Source: Terriglobales bacterium (lineage in GTDB: Bacteria > Acidobacteriota > Terriglobia > Terriglobales > Acidobacteriaceae). Taken from it: DNA of 64,000 nucleotides. A program made the position numbers and the translations under genes. Of this stretch, positions 882 to 19,308 are shown piece after piece. The stretch lies in contig JAICSO010000001.1 in assembly GCA_025936825.1 (NCBI GenBank), positions 62,001 to 126,000 of the forward strand, read 5' to 3'. The stretch's first letter is position 1; each line of letters opens with the position of its first letter. The notes beneath the pieces were generated by a model that was given only the letters and a program-made list of their open reading frames with translations, was not told the DNA's origin and ran no database searches.

Positions 882-1559
882 CTAAACGTAAGACTCAGCT
901 TCCTGCCGCACTGCTGTCTTTTTGACCTCCAGCCACTGCAACCATTCTTGTAGCCCATAACCAGCTGTGCACGAGACGCGAACAACCTCGACGCCAGGAT
1001 GAACCTTGCGAGCATTCTCCTCCGCCTTCGCGATGTCGAATGGTACGTAGGGCAGGAGATCCGTTTTTGTAATGATCACCAGTTCGGACTTAAAAAAGAT
1101 GGACGGATATTTCAGCGGCTTGTCTTCGCCTTCGGTCACGCTCAGCAGAACGATCTTTGCCGCTTCGCCAAGGTCGTAGCTGGATGGGCAGACCAGGTTG
1201 CCGACGTTTTCGATAAATAAAATGCCGAGTTCGCCGAGGTTCCAATCGGCAAGGTGCTTATCGATCATGCGCGCATCAAGGTGGCAGGTCCCACCGGTCG
1301 TAATCTGCTTCGTAGGGAACCCGGAGCGCTTGAGTCGGTTTGCGTCATTTTCGGTCTGAATGTCGCCGGTAAGGACGGCAACGCGTTCGGTGCGCGGAAG
1401 AGCTTCGAGCGTCTTCTCGAGCAACGTGGTTTTCCCCGAACCGGGCGAACTGATCAAGTTCACAACCAGGACATCGTTCTGCCGAAAGCGTTCGCGCAAT
1501 TCGGCAGCGACGCGATCATTCTCGCTCAAGACCTTCTTTTCAAGCGGTACTCGGTTCAT
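882..1559 (-). CDS. hypB: Hydrogenase nickel incorporation GTPase HypB
   Basis: HypB is the SIMIBI-class GTPase that, with HypA, delivers Ni to the hydrogenase large subunit in the cytoplasm. It has 225 residues. Walker A is SSPGSGKTT at about residues 37-45. The metal and switch region ENVGNLVCPSSYDLGE contains the conserved Cys, and KTDLL is the guanine-specificity motif. The N-terminus has neither the His-rich nickel store nor the CxxCGC motif found in some HypB proteins, so this is a minimal form. It overlaps hypA by 20 nt, indicating translational coupling. Confidence 0.97.
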   Translation of the reverse strand: MNRVPLEKKVLSENDRVAAELRERFRQNDVLVVNLISSPGSGKTTLLEKTLEALPRTERVAVLTGDIQTENDANRLKRSGFPTKQITTGGTCHLDARMIDKHLADWNLGELGILFIENVGNLVCPSSYDLGEAAKIVLLSVTEGEDKPLKYPSIFFKSELVIITKTDLLPYVPFDIAKAEENARKVHPGVEVVRVSCTAGYGLQEWLQWLEVKKTAVRQEAESYV

Positions 1560-1899
1560 ACTCCTCCAACTCTACGTAGGCGAGTTGCAGTTCTTCCCCG
1601 CTAATGCACTCGTTGCGGTTGGTTCCACATTGAGGACAGTCGAAAATGAAATCTTTGACTTCGAACTCGGTTGCGCAGTCCAGGCAGCGGTGACGGCGTC
1701 GGCAAAACTCGATATCCAGTGTCAGCCCCTGGAGATCCGTCTCGGCAGTCAACGCTTCAAAACTAAAGCGCAGCGCGTCAGGATCGATGGCGGAGAGTTC
1801 GCCGATACGCAGCCCAACCTTTACAGGCTTGGAGTTTCGCGTTGCAGCCTCCGCCTGTACGGCGTCAAGTACGGATTGTGCGATTCCGAGTTCGTGCAT
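1540..1899 (-). CDS. hypA: Hydrogenase nickel chaperone HypA
   Basis: Small (119 aa) Ni/Zn metallochaperone partner of HypB. It begins MHELGIAQSV, and His2 is the conserved Ni ligand. The structural zinc site is two CxxC pairs, Cys72/Cys75 and Cys88/Cys91. The C-terminus is acidic. It lies between hypE and hypB. The 114-nt gap to hypE holds a CAGAGGA-type repeat. Confidence 0.97.
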   Translation of the reverse strand: MHELGIAQSVLDAVQAEAATRNSKPVKVGLRIGELSAIDPDALRFSFEALTAETDLQGLTLDIEFCRRRHRCLDCATEFEVKDFIFDCPQCGTNRNECISGEELQLAYVELEEYEPSTA

Positions 1900-1957
1900 A
1901 AGAGCCTTCAGCCGTCAGCCATCACCATCAGTCAAAACCAAATGCAAACAAAAACCT

Positions 1958-2003
1958 TCATCACAGAGGACGCAGAGTCTCACAGAGGAACGCCACAGAG
2001 GAG
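1958..2003. repeat. Family D repeat (CACAGAGGACGCAGAG type)
   Basis: Imperfect tandem CACAGAGGA units in the hypE-hypA spacer. The wording is the same as at 20333-20505, 23373-23424, 27505-27584, 34455-34665 and near several other gene ends. Confidence 0.7.
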
Positions 2004-2013
2004 TTCCGTCTGT

Positions 2014-3138
2014 TTAACAAATTCTTGGCAACTGGTCGCCCGCGAGCATGTCCACGATGCGGGTTGTGCCTAACGTCGTCCGCATTGTGACCAAGCTTGC
2101 GCTCTTGTCTGTTATCGCGCCAATGATTCGTGCCTCTTTGCCGAGAGGGTGCTGGCGCATGATCTCAACCAACGCGTCGGCCGCATCTGGCGCAACGATC
2201 GCAACCAGCTTGCCTTCATTCGCGACGTACAGAGGATCAAGGCCGAGCATTTCGCAGGCGCCGCGCACGTCGTCGCGAACGGGAATCTTGTCCTCCTCTA
2301 TTTCAATACCTACTCGCGACTGCTCGGCTATTTCGTTCAGGGTGCTGGAGAGCCCGCCGCGCGTCGGGTCGCGCATGCAACGAATTGCACCTGAGGTACA
2401 CACTTCGGAGTTCCCAGTTCTGGCAACCCGAGCGAGAAGTGGGGCACCCCCCTCATACTGAGTGTTCAACATGTAAGCGACAAGCGTGTGCAGTGCGGCG
2501 CTGTCGCTTTCGATGGTCGTCTCAAATTCGAGGCCTTCGCGCTGCGCCAGGATTGCAATCCCGTGGTCGCCTACGTAGCCACTCAGGATGACCTTGTCCC
2601 CCGGTTGGGCGCGATCGGCGGAGAGTTCAAGTTCTTGCTGCACGACGCCGATTCCAGTCGTATTGATAAAGAGGCCGTCGCCTTTTCCTTTCTCAACAAC
2701 CTTAGTGTCACCGGTGACGATCTGTACGCCGGCATCATTCGCAGCTCGCTGCAGAGACGCAACCACCCTCTGCAGTGTCTCCATAGGCAAGCCCTCTTCC
2801 AGGATGAACGCGATGCTGAGGAAGAGCGGCTGGGCGCCTCCCATCGCGAGATCATTGATGGTGCCGTGTACTGCGAGGGAGCCGATGTCGCCACCTGGAA
2901 AGAAGAGCGGCTTCACAACGAAAGAGTCGGTCGTGATCGCCAGGCGCGAGCCGTTGACGCTGACAACAGCCTGATCGTTCAACTGCGCGAGAGTTGGGTT
3001 CCCAAACGCGGGCAAGAAAATGTCGCGCACGAGTTCGGCGCTGAGCTTGCCTCCGCTGCCGTGGCCAAGAAGGATGCGGTCGCGCGTAGTCAGCGGTGCA
3101 GGACAACTGAGGCTAGCGAGTTTGACGCCGTCGGCCAT
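2014..3138 (-). CDS. hypE: Hydrogenase expression/formation protein HypE
   Basis: HypE is the ATP-dependent dehydratase of the AIR-synthase-like superfamily. It carries the thiocarbamate on its C-terminal Cys and converts it to thiocyanate for HypC/HypD. Seen: HGSGGK near the N-terminus, MRDPTRGGL, and the exact C-terminal PRIC. I chose ATG 3138 (374 aa) over the GTG at 3207, because the extra 23 codons fall inside a palindromic repeat and are not HypE-like. About 25 residues between LVAYML and AIRCMRDPTRGG are absent from ordinary HypE proteins and match a repeat. It lies 122 nt downstream of hypD. Confidence 0.95.
   Translation of the reverse strand: MADGVKLASLSCPAPLTTRDRILLGHGSGGKLSAELVRDIFLPAFGNPTLAQLNDQAVVSVNGSRLAITTDSFVVKPLFFPGGDIGSLAVHGTINDLAMGGAQPLFLSIAFILEEGLPMETLQRVVASLQRAANDAGVQIVTGDTKVVEKGKGDGLFINTTGIGVVQQELELSADRAQPGDKVILSGYVGDHGIAILAQREGLEFETTIESDSAALHTLVAYMLNTQYEGGAPLLARVARTGNSEVCTSGAIRCMRDPTRGGLSSTLNEIAEQSRVGIEIEEDKIPVRDDVRGACEMLGLDPLYVANEGKLVAIVAPDAADALVEIMRQHPLGKEARIIGAITDKSASLVTMRTTLGTTRIVDMLAGDQLPRIC
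2389..2462. repeat. Repeat inserted in frame inside hypE
   Basis: GC-rich stretch containing GAGAAGTGGGGCACC. It encodes an extra loop of about 25 residues just before the conserved MRDPTRGGL of HypE. From memory, TGGGGCACC-type repeats are common between genes in Acidobacteria. The boundaries are approximate. Confidence 0.6.
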
Positions 3139-3148
3139 CACCGCCCGT

Positions 3149-3254
3149 GTGGGGACGGGCGCCCTCGCCCGTCCGGTCGAGCGAAGCTCGACAGATTTCG
3201 TACCCACTCTGGCCTTCGGCCAGCGGACAGCCGAGGGCGGCTGTCCCTACACAC
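3149..3254. repeat. Family A double-hairpin repeat between hypD and hypE
   Basis: Contains GGACGGGCG...CGCCCGTCC, then GTCGAGCGAAGCTCGAC, then GCTGGCC-type and GGACAGCC...GGCTGTCC hairpins. It has the same modules, in the same order, as the copy at 765-880. It supplies a spurious upstream GTG start for hypE. Confidence 0.8.
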
Positions 3255-3260
3255 CACTTG

Positions 3261-4373
3261 CTAAACCGCAATCTTCGTCAGCGAGCCAGCATGCCGGCGA
3301 TAGTGGTAATAGGCCGCGCAAGCACCTTCCGACGAAACCATTGGCGCACCCAGAGGATTTTCTGGCGTGCACCGAATGGCAAATGCCGGGCAATCCGTCG
3401 GCTTTCTCAGCCCCTGGAGAACCTTTGCGCTGATGCATTCCGCCGGCTCATCCGCTGAAATCAGGTCGAGATCGAAGATGCGATTCGCGTCGTAGTCAGC
3501 GTACGCATCCGACAACCGCAGTCCGCTGTTTGGGATCATCCCAATGCCGCGCCACTTCTGGTCCGCGATCTCGAACACCTCACGTACCACTTCTTGCGCG
3601 CGCACATTCCCCTGGTACGTTACCGAGCGAACATACTGATTCTCGACTCGCGCCTCACCGCGCTCGAGTTGCTTTACGAGCATGAGTACGGCCTCGAGCA
3701 GATCCACAGGTTCAAATCCGCCCACAACGATAGGGACATTGAAATCGCGGACAAGCCCCTCATATTCGCTGTAACCCATGACCGTGCAGACATGACCGGG
3801 AGCAATGAATCCCTGAACGCGGTTCTCGGGAGTAGCCAGCAGCGCCCGAATGGCGGGAGGAACGAGCACATGTGAGACCAGCAAAGAAAGATTTTTTAGA
3901 CCGTCGCGCTTAGCCAGCCAGGCTGCCATTGCATTAGCCGGGGCAGTGGTCTCAAAGCCGATTGCCAGAAACACAACTTTCTTGTCTGGGTTGGCGCGGG
4001 CAATCTTGACCGCCTCACTCGGCGAATAGGCAACGCGCACGTCGGCGCCCTCGGCTTTCGCACGGAACAGATCGGAGTTGGATCCCGGCACCCGCAGCAT
4101 GTCACCGTAGGACACCAGGATCACATCGGGGTGCAGGGCCAGCGCGATCGCTTTATCGATTGTTTCGAGCGGAGTAACGCAGACGGGGCAACCGGGGCCA
4201 TGCACCAGTTCGATCTGCTTGGGAAGAATTTCGTCAAGCCCATACCGCATGATGGTGTGCGTTTGACCGCCGCAGATTTCCATCAACACCCAATCACGCG
4301 TGGTGTTCGCAGCAACCTCCTTCGCCAGCGTGCGGGCTATGCGTGCGTCGCGATATTCGTCGAGGAACTTCAT
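3261..4373 (-). CDS. hypD: Hydrogenase Fe(CN)2CO assembly protein HypD
   Basis: HypD is the [4Fe-4S] scaffold on which, with HypC, the Fe(CN)2CO unit is built. It has 370 aa, the usual length. Seen: [14 protein letters not shown], then [30 protein letters not shown], and the C-terminal cluster region with Cys in [18 protein letters not shown] and SEGACAAYY. The start ATG is at 4373. It is separated from hypC by a heptamer-repeat spacer of about 94 nt, and from hypE by a family A repeat. Confidence 0.97.
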
Positions 4374-4380
4374 AAAACAA

Positions 4381-4478
4381 GTTGCTAGTGACTAGTGGCT
4401 AGTTGCTAGTTCTTGCCCAATCGCTAGTGCGCTTCACATATCTGTGCTATTCACTAGCCACTAGCCACTAATCACTGC
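4381..4478. repeat. Inverted pair of heptamer arrays (CTAGTGR type)
   Basis: A forward array of CTAGTGA/CTAGTGG/CTAGTTG units (4385-4412) is followed about 40 nt later by the reverse-complement array CACTAGC/CACTAAT (4451-4476). The second array supplies the last codon and stop of hypC. The same heptamers occur at 21428-21460, 42718-42796 and 52360-52390. Confidence 0.85.
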
Positions 4479-4722
4479 TTTCCGGCAATTCCTCCTCCAG
4501 CGCTCCCATCTCTTCCAGCAACTGATACGTGCGCTCGGCCTCGGCTGCGTCAACGCGGCTGATGGCATAGCCGACGTGCACCATGACGTAGTCGCCAACC
4601 TGAGCTTCGGGCACGAAGTCCAAGCTGGCTTGCCGCACGATCCCGCCAAACTGGATGCGCGCGGAACGAAGGCCATTGGCCTCTTCTACGCTGACAATCT
4701 TTCCAGGGATGGCGAGGCACAT
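4468..4722 (-). CDS. hypC: Hydrogenase assembly chaperone HypC
   Basis: 84-residue chaperone that binds HypD and the hydrogenase large-subunit precursor during iron-centre insertion. It begins MCLAIPGKI with the essential Cys2, and has His49 in DYVMVHVGYAISRVD. It is the first gene of the hyp operon. Its promoter region carries a 22-bp perfect palindrome at 4788-4809. The final Asp codon and the TAG stop are read from the adjacent heptamer repeat. Confidence 0.97.
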   Translation of the reverse strand: MCLAIPGKIVSVEEANGLRSARIQFGGIVRQASLDFVPEAQVGDYVMVHVGYAISRVDAAEAERTYQLLEEMGALEEELPESSD

Positions 4723-4787
4723 AAAGCAACTAAGAACCAGAGCACTTTCAATGCTCTATGCCATAAATATACGGCGGGTACAGAGAA

Positions 4788-4809
4788 CACTGTGATTTAA
4801 ATCACAGTG
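4788..4809 (-). promoter_or_regulatory. Perfect CRP/FNR-type operator upstream of hypC
   Basis: The core TGTGATTTAAATCACA (4791-4806) is extended by CAC and GTG to a perfect 22-bp palindrome. On the minus strand a TATTTA/TATATT box lies at 4771-4764. The distance from the operator centre to this -10 box is 30-32 bp, which places the operator at about -40 to -41.5, the class II activator position. The hypC ATG follows about 40 nt after that box. Confidence 0.8.
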
Positions 4810-4844: not shown

Positions 4845-5555
4845 TTAGGAATGAACCAACTTCTCAAGGCCGGGTTTGTTGCGGATGAGCAGCATTGAGC
4901 CCTTAATCTGCACCAACTGCTTCTTCTTGAAATCAGAGAACAGGCGGCTGACGGTTTCGCGGGTGGTGCCGATCATCTCGGCGATTTCTTCGTGGGTCAG
5001 CGTCAGTCGGATCTGCTCGTTGCCGTTTGATTTTTCCGACTCCCAGGTGAGCAGCAGTTTGGCGAATTTCTCGGCCGGGGAAGTTGCTAATCCGAGAGTA
5101 CGGATTTCTTCGTACGCAACGTAGTAATTCCGGCTCAATTGCTCCGCAACGCGCAACGCAACTTCACCGTGATCTTTCAGGAACTGCAGCAAGGATTCGC
5201 GCGAAATGAAATTAGCCTGCCCGGGCTCAATCATTTCGGCAGTCACTTCATAAGGATGGTTGGAAACAGTTGCGTTCAATCCAAGCACGTCGCCAGGCTC
5301 TGAAATTTTGGTGATGATCGTCTTGCCTTCACTCGATGAAGTCGAGAGTTTTGCCTTGCCAGTGCACAACACAAAGACGCCGCGCGGCCGCTGTCCTTCA
5401 ATAAACAGCACGGCCGACTTGGGATAGATCGCGGTGGACTTGATGTCGTTGAGCTTCTGAACAACAGGTAAGGGCAAATTACAGAAGAGGTGCTCTTCTC
5501 GAACCGGGCACGCAACGCAGTCGTCGAGAATGTTTAATCCATAGGGCGAACGCAT
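4845..5555 (-). CDS. Crp/Fnr-family transcriptional regulator
   Basis: 236-residue regulator: N-terminal Cys motif C13-x2-C16-x8-C25, a cyclic-nucleotide-like beta-roll sensor (about 30-150), and a C-terminal winged helix with LTHEEIAEMIGTTRETVSR. The recognition helix reads R199-E200-x-x-S203-R204. E..SR is FNR-like, while the Arg before Glu is the CRP feature that favours TGTGA half-sites. The Cys set could hold an oxygen-labile Fe-S cluster; the spacing differs from E. coli FNR (C-x2-C-x5-C), so this is inference. It sits head to tail with hypC, and both have TGTGA palindromes upstream. It is the likely regulator of the hyp/hox genes. Confidence 0.9.
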   Translation of the reverse strand: MRSPYGLNILDDCVACPVREEHLFCNLPLPVVQKLNDIKSTAIYPKSAVLFIEGQRPRGVFVLCTGKAKLSTSSSEGKTIITKISEPGDVLGLNATVSNHPYEVTAEMIEPGQANFISRESLLQFLKDHGEVALRVAEQLSRNYYVAYEEIRTLGLATSPAEKFAKLLLTWESEKSNGNEQIRLTLTHEEIAEMIGTTRETVSRLFSDFKKKQLVQIKGSMLLIRNKPGLEKLVHS

Positions 5556-5594
5556 ATACAGAGTTCCGAAGCATGAATTGTATCACTCTCGTGA

Positions 5595-5610
5595 TGTGAT
5601 TGCGATCACC
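5595..5610 (-). promoter_or_regulatory. CRP/FNR-type operator upstream of the regulator
   Basis: TGTGATTGCGATCACC is 9 of 10 in the palindromic half-sites. It is centred 47 bp before the regulator's ATG, as expected for autoregulation. A second inverted motif, ATCAC-TCTC-GTGAT (5582-5595), abuts it. Confidence 0.65.
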
Positions 5611-5840: not shown

Positions 5841-6293
5841 ATGGAGACCAGACACAGCTATCGGGTCGTTGCCTGGTGGACGTCCGGCAAAACCGGATTA
5901 GCCAAGACTGATACCGCGCCGAATGCGATCCACTTCACAGCACCCCCCGAGTTTGGCGGTATGGAAGGCCGATGGACCCCAGAGAGCCTGCTGCTGTGCT
6001 CCATCGCAGGCTGCTATACCACGACGTTCCGCGCAATCGCCGAGTACTCGAAATTCGAGTACTCCGATCTCGAGGTCGCGGTGGAAGGCACAATCCAAAA
6101 AGTCGAGTCGGGATATGCGTTCACCGAAATCGCCATCCGCCCCAGCCTTTCGATGCACGACGAGCAGGAGCAAGCGCGCGGGTTGCGCCTGCTGCACAAA
6201 GCAAAATCGTTGTGCCTGGTGACGCGCGCGATTTCCGTACCCCAGGCTTTTGAACCACACATTCAGGTCGCACATGCAGTAGGCGCGATCTAG
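5841..6293 (+). CDS. OsmC/Ohr-family peroxide-reactive protein
   Basis: 150-residue OsmC-fold protein. The reactive Cys pair of the family is present as C53 (LLLCSIAGCY) and C125 (KSLCLVTRA). Members reduce organic hydroperoxides with thiols or are OsmC-like proteins of unknown substrate. A strong Shine-Dalgarno (AAGGAG) precedes ATG 5841. It is 33 nt upstream of nifJ and evidently cotranscribed, which suggests protection of the oxygen-sensitive oxidoreductase. The substrate cannot be told from sequence. Confidence 0.85.
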   Translation: METRHSYRVVAWWTSGKTGLAKTDTAPNAIHFTAPPEFGGMEGRWTPESLLLCSIAGCYTTTFRAIAEYSKFEYSDLEVAVEGTIQKVESGYAFTEIAIRPSLSMHDEQEQARGLRLLHKAKSLCLVTRAISVPQAFEPHIQVAHAVGAI

Positions 6294-6326: not shown

Positions 6327-9941
<3,615 letters not shown>

Positions 9942-12905: not shown

Positions 12906-12921
12906 TGTGATTCTCATCACC
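12906..12921 (+). promoter_or_regulatory. CRP/FNR-type operator upstream of the RsbRD_N-like gene
   Basis: TGTGATTCTCATCACC: 9 of 10 half-site bases are palindromic. It is centred about 92 bp before the ATG at 13006. It is the same consensus as the sites before hypC, the regulator and hoxE. Confidence 0.6.
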
Positions 12922-13005: not shown

Positions 13006-13464
13006 ATGATGATGCTCTATAGGCTCGTCCATTTGATTGAGACGCATTCGCAAGCGCTTTCCACCTGTCTGATCGACCGCGTACTGGCGTCGGATGCGAC
13101 CCCCGACTACAAGCACGTCCCCCAAGATGAACTGCGTCAGGTCGTATTTGAGATTTACCGGCACTTGGGGGACTGGCTCTTGACCAAAGACGAACTCGAC
13201 CTTGAGCGCCGTTATTTGCGCATCGGGGCGGAACGCGCGAAACAGAATGTCCCATTCAGCCAGGTCGCGTGGGTGATCGTCATGGTGAAGGACAACCTGT
13301 GGGACTTCCTCAAGAAGGAAGTACCCGAGGAACGTCCCGTTGAGGCATTCGGTGAGCTGGAGATGCTGCAGTTGCTAAACCACTTCTTCGATCGCGCGAT
13401 CTATTACGCGGCCGTTGGTTACGAACTACGCAGCAAGCCAGAATCGGTAGCGGTCGGAGCCTGA
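13006..13464 (+). CDS. RsbRD_N-like single-domain protein
   Basis: 152 residues, all helical by appearance. The pattern LVHLIETHSQALSTCLIDRVLASDATPDY...ELRQVVFEIYRHLGDWL resembles the N-terminal domain of the RsbT co-antagonist RsbRD (PF14361), here without the STAS domain. A G-rich ribosome site (GGGGGGACACC) precedes ATG-ATG-ATG. It is convergent with the hydrogenase operon and has a CRP/FNR-type palindrome upstream, so it may belong to the same hypoxia/H2 regulon. The function is unknown; a ligand- or haem-binding helical sensor role is speculative. Confidence 0.65.
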   Translation: MMMLYRLVHLIETHSQALSTCLIDRVLASDATPDYKHVPQDELRQVVFEIYRHLGDWLLTKDELDLERRYLRIGAERAKQNVPFSQVAWVIVMVKDNLWDFLKKEVPEERPVEAFGELEMLQLLNHFFDRAIYYAAVGYELRSKPESVAVGA

Positions 13465-14033: not shown

Positions 14034-15464
14034 CTAGTTTCGCACGACCTCGTCGAGCACGGCGCCATCCGGGCTGAGCAGCTGGATTTGCAGAGCCATC
14101 TGTCCAGCAGCGTGGGTGGAGCAGCTCAGGCAAGGATCGTAAGCGCGAATAACGGCTTCCACGCGGTTGAGCATGCCATGTGTGATCTTCTCGCCTTTCA
14201 CGTAGTGCTTTGCCACCTGCAGCACGCTCTTATTCATCGCGAGATTATTCTGGCCGGTCGCAATAACCAGGTTCGCCCAGCGAATCAGGCCCTGCTCGTC
14301 GATCTTGTAATGATGGAACAGGGTGCCGCGAGGAGCTTCTGCTGCGCCGACCCCTTCCAGAGCATTCGCTTTCGCAATCGCGCGCACGTGTTTGTCGAGG
14401 ATTTCCGGATCGTTCAGCAAGCTCTCCATGCGCTCGATGCAATATAGGATTTCAATCAGCCGCGCATGGTGATAGTGGAACGAACTGAGCACCGCCGTGC
14501 GCTGCAGCTCCTGAAACTCTGCTAATTCCTGATCGGCGCGCGGGGTGCCGCAACGGTCGGCAACGTTAAGCCGCGCGAGCGGACCCACGCGATAGACACC
14601 TTCTGAATATCCCTTCGGCTTGTAATAGGTGGATTTGAGATAGCTCCACGGCTCAACCTTCTCGCCCAGGAATTCCTGGTAGTCCGCAGGATCAAGATCT
14701 TTTGCGACTAGAGTCCCCGACGCGTCGACGAAGCGAATCTTGCCGTCGTAGAAGGTCAAGCCGCCGTCTGGCTTTACAATCCCCATGAAGAGAGTCGGGA
14801 AATTGCCGAAGCTGGCGATCTCCTGGCGAAAGCCCTCGATTGTTCCCTTGAGCCACACGATGCTGCGTTCGGCAATGGCGAGGGCATCCGGAATCGTTTT
14901 CAGGATCGCGTCGCGATCGTCTGCAGTGAGAGGATCACTTACGCCGCCGGGGACGACCCATGCGGGGTGAATGCGCTTACCGCCGAGCCGCTCAATGATC
15001 TGCTGTCCGAACTTGCGGAGTGCAATTCCGTCCTTCGCGAGCTGCGGATTTTTCTCCAGAACGCCGAAAATGTTGCTCTTGGCAGGGTCGGCATCCATGC
15101 CGAGAAGAATGTCGGGCGAGGAAAGATGGAACAGGCTCAGCGCATGCGATTGCACCACTTGGGCGAGACCGAAGATGCGGCGGAGTTTGTCCGCGGTGGG
15201 CGGAATGCGTACCGCCAGCAGTGCGTCGCAGGCCTTGGCAGAAGCAATCAGGTGGCTGACGGGGCAGATGCCGCAGATGCGCGCCATGAGCGCGGGCATC
15301 TCCGAGAATGGGCGGCCTTCGCAGAATTTCTCAAATCCGCGGAACTGCGTAACGTGGAATTGAGCGTCGTAAACCTGCCCCTCTTCGTTAAGGTGCAGGG
15401 TGATTTTGGAGTGACCCTCAATGCGGGTCACCGGATCGATAACGATGGTTCTGCGTTCTGCCAC
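14034..15464 (-). CDS. hoxH: NAD-reducing [NiFe] hydrogenase large subunit HoxH
   Basis: 476 aa from GTG 15464, which has AGGAG 7 nt upstream. The frame is open to 15719, but the extra residues are repeat-derived. It holds the NiFe active site: L1 motif [10 protein letters not shown] (Cys64, Cys67) and L2 motif DPCLSCSTH (Cys445, Cys448, His451). These are followed by a 25-residue C-terminal extension (AAGQ...EVVRN), the expected HoxW-cleaved peptide. It has the [11 protein letters not shown] signature. Together with hoxEFUY this is a group 3d bidirectional enzyme. The 229-nt gap from hoxY is filled by a repeat. Confidence 0.96.
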
Positions 15465-15550
15465 GATGTGCTCCTGACCTTCAACCACGCCGCAGTCGCG
15501 AAAGCGACGGAATCCAATTAGCCCAGCACATAAGTGCCGGGAGAGCAGTT

Positions 15551-15645
15551 TTTCAATGTCATTCCGACCAAGCAAGATGATCGGTTCCTCGACTCCGGAC
15601 ATCGTCCGCTTCGCGAACGATCTTCTTCGCTCGGAATGACGGGAG
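15551..15645. repeat. Family B repeat (GTCATTCCGA...TCGGAATGAC) between hoxY and hoxH
   Basis: The long inverted repeat begins GTCATTCCGACCAAGC and ends CTTCGCTCGGAATGAC. Internal CGGTTCCTCGACTCCG and CGCTTCGCGAACG modules are shared with 37872-38030 and 44583-44652. It separates the small and large subunit genes within one operon, so it may adjust their relative expression. Confidence 0.8.
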
Positions 15646-15693
15646 TTAAAAGATCCAGTTCGGCACGGCTCAAGCCGTGCCCTGATACAAACT

Positions 15694-16224
15694 CTAGGCT
15701 CCGAACCTCGTCTTCGCACTTAGTTCCGGTTGGCGCCCCTCCAGCAGTTCGGTTAGTGCGTAATAAATGGTATCCGCTGAAGGGGGGCAACCGGGTATAA
15801 AAACGTCCACGTTCACCACTTCGTGTATCGGGCGCGCGTACGGCAACAATCTTGGTATGACCTGCGCCGGGGTTCCCGGATTCAGCGTCACGTTCTCCGT
15901 GTAGGCGCGGTCGCAAACCGCTTTCACGCCGAATGCGTTGCGCATTCCAGGAACATTTGCGGTCACTGAGCAGTCACCCAATGAAACGAGGGTTTTCACT
16001 TTCCTTCGAATCATCTGGATCTTGTGCAGGTCTTCCTCGCTACTGACCGCGCCTTCCACCAGCGCGACATCGACATCTCCTGGGAACTCTTTGATGTCGA
16101 CCAGCGGGCTATAGACAAGGTCGGCTTTCTCCGCGACCTCGATCAGACGCTCGTCCAGATCGAGAAACGACATGTGGCAGCCAGAGCAGCCATCCAGCCA
16201 AACGGTAGCAAGTCTCTTTTTCAT
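15694..16224 (-). CDS. hoxY: [NiFe] hydrogenase small subunit HoxY
   Basis: 176 aa, the short cytoplasmic type carrying only the proximal [4Fe-4S] cluster. Ligands: Cys13 and Cys16 ([11 protein letters not shown]), Cys in [16 protein letters not shown], and Cys in [10 protein letters not shown]. There is no Tat signal, consistent with a soluble group 3 enzyme. The start ATG overlaps the hoxU stop by 4 nt. It pairs with HoxH to form the hydrogenase half. Confidence 0.96.
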
Positions 16225-16979
16225 TCCTGGCTCTCCCGCATCATGGTCAAGTACGGCAGGAAGTGGCGCCGCTTCTCCATCTCAGCGACGGCGTGTCCTT
16301 TTTCAGAGAGCGCGCCCGTCGGGCAGACATGCACGCATTTCCCGCAACTGGTGCACGTCTCCGAATTTCCCCATGCCTCATTCAGATCAGTAACGACCTT
16401 CGCGTCGATGCCGCGGCCCATGACATCCCAAACATGCGCACCTTCAATTTCGTCGCACACGCGCACGCAACGCGTGCATAGGATGCACCGGTTGTGGTCG
16501 ATGACGAACCGCTCATGGGACGCGTCCACGTTCGCCTTGGGATATCGATAGGGAAAGTGAACGTGCGTGAGGCCCAGCTTCTGCGCCATCCACTGCAAAT
16601 CACAGTGCCCGTTCGAGACGCACACGGAGCAAATGTGATTGCGCTCCGTGAACAGCAACTCGATAATCATCCGGCGATACGCGGCCAGACGCGGCGAGTT
16701 GGTCGTGACTTCCATGCCCTCGTAGACGCGGGTCACGCATGCCGGCAGCAGTTTGTTCGAACCTTTTACTTCGACCAGGCACAACCTGCATGCGCCGACA
16801 TCCGACAAGCCTTCCAGTTCGCAAAGACGCGGGATGAAAATCTTGTTCTGCCGCGCCACGTCGAGGATGGTCTCTTCTGGCCGCGCACTGAAATCTTTGC
16901 CGTCGATCTGCAGAGTCTTCACGTTGCTGGCGGGTTGCACAGGTTTGGTGCCCGGTTTTACCACGTTGGTCGGACTCAT
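16221..16979 (-). CDS. hoxU: Diaphorase subunit HoxU
   Basis: 252 aa from ATG 16979; upstream in-frame codons are Arg-rich and overlap hoxF. It resembles the N-terminus of NuoG: a plant-type [2Fe-2S] motif ([18 protein letters not shown]), the Cys/His region with [10 protein letters not shown], and two [4Fe-4S] sets ([13 protein letters not shown] and [12 protein letters not shown]). It wires electrons between HoxF and HoxY. It overlaps hoxF and hoxY by 4 nt each (ATGA), so translation is coupled. Confidence 0.95.
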
Positions 16980-18673
16980 GCTCCCACCTCGCTCAGTTCG
17001 CGCGCCTCGTTCTTCTCCTCGGGCTTCGACTTTTCGTCTCCGCCGTTCTCGTGTGCGCCGCAAACGCCTGCCGCGCACTTCTTATCGTGAATGTGCGCGC
17101 GATACTCTTCTGCGAACGACTTCAACGTGCTGACCACAGGATTTGGCGCAGATTGGCCGAGCCCACAGAGGCTGGTGTTCTTCAGCAGATCGCAGAGCTC
17201 TTCCAGCATTTTCAGGTCCGGCTCAGTCGCAGTGAGGTTAGTGATCGCGCTCAGGATCCGATGCATCTGGTAAGTACCAACGCGGCAGGGAACACACTTG
17301 CCGCAAGACTCCGTCATGCAGAAGTCCATGAAGTACTTGGCGACGTCGACCATGCAGGAGCTTTCATCCATGATGATCATTCCGCCGGAGCCCATGATGG
17401 ACCCAGCTTTCGCGAGCGACTCGTAATCCACGGGCATATCCAAACAATCCGCCGGCAGGCAGCCCCCAGATGGGCCACCGGTCTGCACGGCTTTGAATTT
17501 GCGCCCTTCGGGAATTCCTCCGCCGATGTCATACACGATGTCGCGCAGGGTAATTCCCATCGGCACTTCGACCAACCCGGTGTTCTCGATCCGCCCAGCG
17601 AGCGCGAACACCTTTGTGCCTTTGCTCTTTTCGGTTCCGATCTCCGCGTACCAAGCGCCGCCGTTGCGAATGATCGGCGGCACGTTCGCGTAAGTCTCGA
17701 CATTGTTGATCAATGTTGGCTGACCGAACAGGCCGGACATCGCCGGATAGGGAGGGCGCGGGCGCGGTGTGCCACGTTTGCCTTCTACCGAGGCAATCAA
17801 CGCCGTCTCTTCGCCGCAGACGAATGCGCCCGCGCCTAGGCGTAAATCAATGCGAAAACTGAAGCGGGTTCCGCAGATGTTCGTGCCGAGGAGCCCCAAA
17901 CGCTCTGCTTGGCGTATAGCGGTCTTTAGCCGTTTGATCGCCAGCGGATACTCGGCACGAACATAGATAAAGCCCTCGGAGGCGCCGACCGCGTACGCAG
18001 CAATGAGCATGCCTTCCAGTACGCGATGCGGGTCACTCTCGAGGACGCTGCGGTCCATAAAGGCGCCAGGATCGCCTTCGTCGGCGTTGCAGATGACGTA
18101 CTTCGGATTGCCATCTGCTCTCGAAACTGTGCTCCACTTCAAACCTGTCGGATATCCAGCGCCGCCGCGCCCACGGAGCCCGCTGGTGGTGATTTCGGAA
18201 ATCACCTCCTGCGGCATCATGTCGCTGAGCGCGTTTACGATGGCACGATAGCCGCCTTCGGCGATATAGTCTTCGATCCGCTCGGGGTCGATCACGCCAG
18301 AGTTTTCCAGCACGATTTTCTTTTGGCGCTGAAAGAACGGCACGTCAGTCGGGCAGTCCAGCCGCTTCACGGGTTCACCGTCGAGACTGTTGACCAGGGC
18401 AGCTGCATCCGCGGACGCGACGTGCTTGTACATCTGTTTCTCACTAGTCGCGACCAGGGGGCCTTCCGAGCACAGGCCCATGCAGCCGACGCCTTTCACC
18501 TTGTGTGTCTCTTCCAGGCCGCGATTCTTTACTTCAGCCGTGAGCGCGTCCTTCACCCCCTGGCTCTGGCAGGAGAGGCAGCCGGCGGCCATGCACACCC
18601 TGACTTCGTGCCTGACCTTCTCCCGGGCTTCGCGTTCGGTAACGGCTATCTGTTCCAGCTCTTCAAGATTCAT
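16976..18673 (-). CDS. hoxF: NAD(H)-binding diaphorase subunit HoxF
   Basis: 565 aa, NuoF-like. An N-terminal [2Fe-2S] thioredoxin-like domain (Cys in CMAAGCLSC and CMGLCSEG) is followed by the FMN/NADH core with [29 protein letters not shown] and [19 protein letters not shown]. The C-terminal [4Fe-4S] motif is [13 protein letters not shown]...[11 protein letters not shown] charged tail of about 40 residues with Glu/Lys repeats has no recognised role. This subunit exchanges electrons with NAD+. It starts 11 nt inside the 3' end of hoxE. Confidence 0.96.
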
Positions 18674-19169
18674 GGTGATTCCATTTGCTAAGGTGTTCGC
18701 GTAGAGATTGCGGACTCACTTTTCCGGCAACCTCATTGTCGTAAACCACCGCCGGAGCAAGACCACAGGAACCCAGGCAACGGGCGGTTAATAGCGAGAC
18801 ATTTCCGTCGGGAGTGGTCTCGCCGGGCTTGATGTCCAAATCTTTCTGCATGGCGTCGAGCAACTGTGGAGCGCCCTTAATGTAGCAGGCGGTTCCCAGG
18901 CAAACGACGCAGGTGTGCTTGCCAGCCGGTTTCAGCGTGAAGAAGTGATAGAAGGTCGCAACGCCATACGCGCGGCTCAGCGGCACTCGCAGCGACATCG
19001 CAACGTAGCGGAGGGCCGACTCGTCCAGATATCCAAACGCCTCTTGGACGGTGTGCAAGGTCTCGATCAGCCCGCGGGACTGGTGGCCGAGGCGTCGCAT
19101 GGTGGCGTCCACCAGCTTCCAGCGCTTGTCCTGAGTGGGAGGTTGCGGTTTGGAAACGTATGCGGACAC
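18663..19169 (-). CDS. hoxE: Diaphorase subunit HoxE
   Basis: 168 aa, NuoE-like [2Fe-2S] protein with the ligand pattern CVVCLGTAC...[11 protein letters not shown]. It begins [17 protein letters not shown]. It is the first gene of the hox operon. A TGTGATTGCGCTCACA operator lies 124-139 nt upstream. HoxE may link the diaphorase to ferredoxin in some hydrogenases, which would let NifJ-derived electrons enter. That link is inference. Confidence 0.95.
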
Positions 19170-19292
19170 TCTCTCCTCCTTACGCCAGCATCGCCGCTTC
19201 GCGGAGGCGAGTTGGCCATCTTCACCAGGCTTTTTGGGTCCTTGAATTTGGCCTTGTAAAATAAAACTCTAAAGAAAATCGTTGTACTCCGG

Positions 19293-19308
19293 TGTGATTG
19301 CGCTCACA
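19293..19308. promoter_or_regulatory. CRP/FNR-type operator between hoxE and the stress-protein gene
   Basis: TGTGATTGCGCTCACA has perfect TGTGA/TCACA half-sites. It is centred about 131 bp from hoxE (minus) and 81 bp from the usp gene (plus), so it could serve both. A second TCACGGTGA follows at 19312. Confidence 0.75.

Follow-up and report, generated by a model that had tools for sequence, protein, structure and literature searches.

The gene of interest occupies positions 4845–5555 on the minus strand of the window, by which we mean the whole 64,000-nucleotide stretch of DNA that was analysed; the source genome is 6.54 Mb in size. The gene encodes a transcriptional regulator, and it lies among the following genes and palindromic sites:

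882–4373, minus strand: hypD, hypE, hypA and hypB (profile search)
4468–4722, minus strand: hypC, first gene of the hyp operon (Pfam and NCBIfam profile search)
4791–4806, no strand: operator TGTGATTTAAATCACA, upstream of hypC-hypD-hypE-hypA-hypB; exact palindrome
4845–5555, minus strand: Crp/Fnr-family regulator of the four-cysteine subfamily, 236 aa (open reading frame, Pfam, structure model)
5595–5610, no strand: operator upstream of the regulator gene and, divergently, of OsmC/PFOR; one mismatch
5841–6293, plus strand: OsmC-family gene adjoining the operator (Pfam; near the regulator gene in 43 of 80 loci)
6327–9941, plus strand: pyruvate:ferredoxin oxidoreductase, PFOR (TIGR02176)
12906–12921, no strand: operator-like palindrome; one mismatch
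14034–19169, minus strand: bidirectional NiFe hydrogenase operon, hoxE-F-U-Y-H-like (HoxE and HoxU above the profile cut-off, other subunits below it)
19293–19308, no strand: operator between hoxE (minus strand) and a universal-stress-protein gene (plus strand); one mismatch

The regulator exceeds the Pfam cut-offs for cNMP_binding (PF00027), HTH_Crp_2 (PF13545) and Crp (PF00325), and the combination of a cNMP-binding-like domain with a Crp-type helix-turn-helix (HTH) makes it a member of the Crp/Fnr superfamily. Its AlphaFold model (pLDDT 83, with residues 1–21 at low confidence) has GlxR and other CRPs as top Foldseek matches. Among the matches listed by VIA-align, the top ones are Clr (Z 24.5) and the holo-FNR of A. 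fischeri (Z 23.8, spanning model residues 10–236), which are tied within 1 Z. NCBIfam scores fall below the cut-offs for FtrB (NF006901; 77.9 against 211 bits) and FixK (NF050806; 45 against 300). The regulator has no match in PHROGs, and its HTH part alone, used as a query against a phage collection, returned one weak match to an unannotated record.

Elucidation of how the protein might read DNA begins with its recognition helix:

4944–4961, minus strand: recognition helix R199-E-T-V-S-R204, with R199, E200 and R204 in 102 of 102 sequences

In CRP, the DNA contacts are R180, E181 and R185 and the cAMP contacts E72 and R82; the helix residues that count in FNR are V208, E209, S212 and R213. 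Consensus half-sites are of the TGTGA type for CRP and the TTGAT type for FNR. Within the context T-T-R199-E-T-V-S-R204, the regulator's R199, E200 and R204 align with all three CRP contacts, so that a CRP-type site is expected; the term "hybrid FNR/CRP", which an earlier note on this DNA had applied to the helix, adds little and is overstated. Among 102 distinct family sequences, each of at least 225 aa, R199, E200, T201 and R204 are invariant, while position 203 is serine in 66 and threonine in 36. Because this position varies across the family, the FNR-like serine carries little weight.

Sites of the expected type are plentiful. Four TGTGAT-N4-ATCACA palindromes lie within 20 kb, and at up to two mismatches the window contains 7, where 1.77 would be expected and no more than 5 turned up in any of 100 shuffles. 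Genome-wide, there are 49 sites with at most one mismatch, as compared with 2 for the reversed pattern; 12 are exact, and the exact reversed control gives 0. Six of the 45 genomic sites outside the window were judged to be inside open reading frames longer than 150 aa. The operator also accompanies the gene: of 79 relatives' loci with more than 300 bp of sequence upstream of the regulator gene, 53 contain a site (up to two mismatches) within those 300 bp, whereas the reversed pattern gives 0. When 46 relatives' sites are aligned, hardly any variation is seen in the GTGA and TCAC cores. Finally, an exact site is present in 21 of the 48 genomes that carry a family gene, against 37 of the 249 that do not (Fisher p = 3e-5). 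The TGTGAT-N4-ATCACA operator is real, and far from chance. An FNR-type operator, TTGAT-N4-ATCAA, was rejected: WTTGAT-N4-ATCAAW has only 2 genomic matches (0 reversed), whereas TGTGAT is enriched. The earlier note's reading of this locus (the open reading frame at 4845–5555 with C-x2-C-x8-C, RETVSR and four nearby palindromes) is thus borne out by the open reading frame, Pfam and pattern counts, and its prediction of TGTGA(T) rather than TTGAT half-sites holds. The palindrome at 12906 has no clear target: neither flank shows a −10-like hexamer at a suitable distance, and Pfam and NCBIfam give no match for the open reading frame at 13006.

Elsewhere in the genome (30 hand-picked proteins were scanned), operator sites precede genes for (i) cytochrome bd subunit I (cydA), ADP-forming acetyl-CoA synthetase and two radical SAM proteins, (ii) decaheme/MtrB and paired-CXXCH cytochromes, cytochrome c and 4Fe-4S proteins, and (iii) a PntA/alanine-dehydrogenase-like protein and acetyl-CoA hydrolase beside a POR_N protein. 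Many sites also stand upstream of genes with no obvious anaerobic role, such as those for enolase (eno), adenylate kinase (adk), EF-P (efp) and CysK; others precede LigB and unknowns. In relatives' loci, a site lies upstream of PFOR in 4 of 4 cases, of HoxE in 1 of 1, of OsmC in 18 of 43 (mostly the site shared with the regulator) and of Usp genes in 4 of 23 (control 2). Reading of 20 stretches around exact sites in six other genomes repeatedly turned up genes for PFOR, cytochrome c, radical SAM and Usp-like proteins, and showed that many other sites in those genomes have no counterpart in the regulator's source genome. Judged by annotation, the gene content at the sites fits an anaerobic regulon and points to O2 or redox as the probable signal, which is therefore not as fully open (oxygen, NO or redox) as had been claimed.

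Three sites in the window are accompanied by predicted promoter elements:

4766–4771, minus strand: TATATT, predicted −10-like hexamer of the hyp operon, 27 nt from the operator centre
5577–5582, minus strand: TACAAT, predicted −10-like hexamer of the regulator gene, 20 nt from the operator centre
19266–19271, minus strand: TAGAGT, predicted −10-like hexamer of hoxE, 29 nt from the operator centre

Class II activators bind a site centred at −41.5. Among 40 oriented promoters from 33 hand-chosen sites of the 49, TANNNT hexamers peak 26–31 nt from the palindrome centre, with 12 in this bin and 0–4 in each of nine others (mean of eight bins 2.4; Poisson 8e-6). The peak places the operator centre about where class II activators bind, near −41.5, and this geometry suggests class II activation by the regulator. 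The hoxE spacing of 29 nt was also read from the sequence of one relative's locus (L086). In 46 relatives, the TACAAT of the regulator gene's promoter is mostly 18–24 nt from the operator centre, such that the operator falls over the −35 region; this arrangement suggests that the regulator represses its own gene. The short spacing is not universal, because the regulator copy of one genome (G257) shows 29 nt.

The sensor domain carries the regulator's only cysteines, C13, C16 and C25 (as C13-x2-C16-x8-C25) and C64:

5517–5519, minus strand: Cys13 codon; aligns with E. coli FNR C20; kept in 100 of 102
5508–5510, minus strand: Cys16 codon; aligns with FNR C23; kept in 100 of 102
5481–5483, minus strand: Cys25 codon; displaced from FNR C29; kept in 99 of 102
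5364–5366, minus strand: Cys64 codon, proposed fourth ligand; aligns with FNR R72, not C122; kept in 100 of 102

In the topology of the beta-roll, the strand carrying C64 presumably lies beside the strand that carries C122 in FNR. The ligands of FNR are C20, C23, C29 and C122, as given in PMC6659574; alignment to E. coli FNR puts N115 of the regulator at the C122 position, and confirms that the cysteine spacing is unlike that of FNR. The triad is as previously described, but the motif had been taken as three cysteines and the conserved C64 missed. The C-terminal cysteine ligands of Bacillus-type FNR are absent, there being no cysteine after residue 64. In a wider set of 180 relatives, which takes in divergent paralogs and short HTH-less open reading frames, 147 have all four cysteines, and 48 of these 147 have an extra one at position 112. 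Among 166 sequences of at least 215 aa, all 143 with an intact N-terminal triad have C64, as do 6 of the 23 without (Fisher 1.5e-18, kinship ignored and with some of the 23 truncated or poorly aligned). A tree yields 7 independent pairs, in which C64 loss tracks triad loss in ~4.3 on average and the opposite in 0 (median p 0.125); linked loss of C64 and the triad is, on this basis, suggestive. Taken as a pattern of sequence conservation, C13, C16, C25 and C64 probably hold an Fe-S cluster. Two family members, L123 and L120, have lost every one of the four cysteines yet keep RETVSR/RETVTR. A role as a cAMP receptor was ruled out because the pocket residues differ: CRP E72 and R82 align with L93 and approximately E103 of the regulator, and are not kept.

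Of 297 sampled genomes of Acidobacteriota, 48 contain relatives of the regulator. A contig scan with 8-residue patterns of the regulator kept 80 of 91 relatives, giving 80 loci that are titled as acidobacterial except for one titled Ignavibacteria (L067); the four-cysteine family has so far been found almost only in Acidobacteriota. Loci L013–L021 of the source genome hold many similar Crp/Fnr paralogs with the helix TTRSRV. In this genome, a second four-cysteine paralog, with RETVTR, is also encoded at L173:2634–3341 (plus strand) and has no operator in the 400 bp upstream at up to three mismatches.

In 28 fetched loci (24 without four duplicates; L025, L027, L028, L029, L035, L125, L126 and L133 are among them), an open reading frame of 132–191 aa encoding a sensor domain without an HTH begins 29–244 bp downstream of the regulator gene. 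All six that were scanned contain PF00027. They mostly end near reference residue 152–159, just past the dimer helix, and most lack the four cysteines of the regulator. The gap between the two genes contains a site (up to two mismatches) in 11 of 24 loci, against 0 for the reversed pattern. The HTH-less protein is a possible dominant-negative partner of the four-cysteine regulator. In the source genome, no such open reading frame adjoins the regulator gene; there are two distant candidates (labelled C22 and C139).

From these observations we infer a mechanism, including its cofactor, signal and sign of regulation, in which the regulator is an O2-responsive Fe-S activator of the Crp/Fnr family, typical of Acidobacteriota, that acts in the manner of FNR on CRP-type DNA. 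We give this reading a probability of roughly 0.6. Its steps would be as follows: (i) C13, C16, C25 and C64 are the ligands of an O2-labile Fe-S cluster, (ii) when O2 is absent, the holo-dimer occupies the operator, whose centre is near −41.5, (iii) the bound holo-dimer activates hydrogenase, PFOR, cytochrome bd and related genes, as at class II CRP/FNR promoters, (iv) at its own promoter, the regulator covers the −35 region and represses, and (v) O2 destroys the cluster and operator binding stops. Weighing against this reading are the low model confidence at residues 1–21, the median p of 0.125 for linked loss of C64 on the tree, the paralogs with the same contact residues, the many sites in front of genes that have no evident link to anaerobic life, and the relatives' Usp genes, most of which are without a site.

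Other readings change either the chemistry of the cysteines, the identity of the DNA reader or the signal. There is perhaps one chance in a handful that, instead of holding an Fe-S cluster, the four cysteines serve as a thiol/disulfide redox switch or bind zinc structurally, with the regulon unchanged. Four cysteines would suit zinc too, C64 is placed unlike an FNR ligand, and a disulfide in this family is described in vitro for CprK in PMC12937710; however, FNR C20 and C23 have counterparts in C13 and C16, and the target genes, for O2-sensitive Fe-S proteins, hydrogenase and bd oxidase, are of the kind typical of FNR. It is rather improbable that the sites are read mainly by other Crp/Fnr paralogs, leaving few genes to the regulator. 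The genome has 19 HTH_Crp_2 matches, and four paralogs (the four-cysteine protein with RETVTR and three with RELVSR) could bind the regulator's sites because they keep the R, E and R contacts. Against this, the site stands upstream of the regulator gene itself and of its relatives (the 53 of 79 loci above), the four-cysteine paralog is without an upstream site, and none of the 49 genomic sites is on a contig that carries a RELVSR gene. Least probable is a cluster that senses nitric oxide or the general redox state: NO also reacts with Fe-S FNR proteins (PMC4771820), but no NO-reductase or hcp-type gene was recognised among the site neighbours, and cydA, PFOR and hydrogenase fit O2.

The O2-responsive Fe-S activator can be extended, tentatively and with the odds against it, to the proposal that Acidobacteriota have a class of O2 sensor of their own. 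This would be an Fe-S Crp/Fnr activator with its fourth ligand moved to C64 and a CRP-type operator, in many members tuned by the adjacent HTH-less paralog, which ends just past the dimer helix, is partly under the same operator and may serve as a dominant-negative partner. Acidobacteriota abound in soil, and none of the papers listed from the open-licence PMC literature (CC0, CC BY and CC BY-SA) describes an anaerobic master regulator or Crp/Fnr oxygen regulator of the phylum; nor was there a description of CX2CX8C with Crp/Fnr among the matches listed from that literature. If true, the proposal would allow the operator, the regulon and the sensing residues to be predicted across much of the phylum, and would mean that FNR-type sensing can pair with CRP-type DNA reading and a relocated ligand.

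Comparison with known systems places the regulator between two groups. Firstly, it shares with FNR (E. coli, A. fischeri) the fold and an N-terminal cysteine loop with C20/C23 equivalents, and is FNR-like in the absence of a cAMP pocket, in its predicted anaerobic-type target genes and in the E and S-R of its helix. It differs from FNR in that the C29 equivalent is shifted (x8, not x5), C122 has no equivalent and C64 stands at FNR R72 instead, R199 replaces V208, and the sites are TGTGAT rather than TTGAT. The FnrL profile of Rhodobacter (NF045989) matches from residue 10 (E 5e-15), yet at 55.5 bits against a cut-off of 300. A Crp/Fnr protein of Bacteroidota (Bernardetia, WP_338790804) has the same C-x2-C-x8-C triad, but with a cysteine aligned to FNR C122 in place of C64, and a helix other than RETVSR. 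Secondly, CRP (E. coli), GlxR, Mtb CRP and Clr share with the regulator the fold and the TGTGA-N6-TCACA operator, and the R-E-xxx-R recognition contacts are common to it and CRP (compared for E. coli CRP); unlike these proteins, the regulator is without the cAMP-contact residues and has the four-cysteine N-terminal motif. As far as sequence comparison defines it, the regulator is FNR-like by its predicted target genes and cysteine motif, is CRP-like in how it reads DNA, and does not belong fully to either group.
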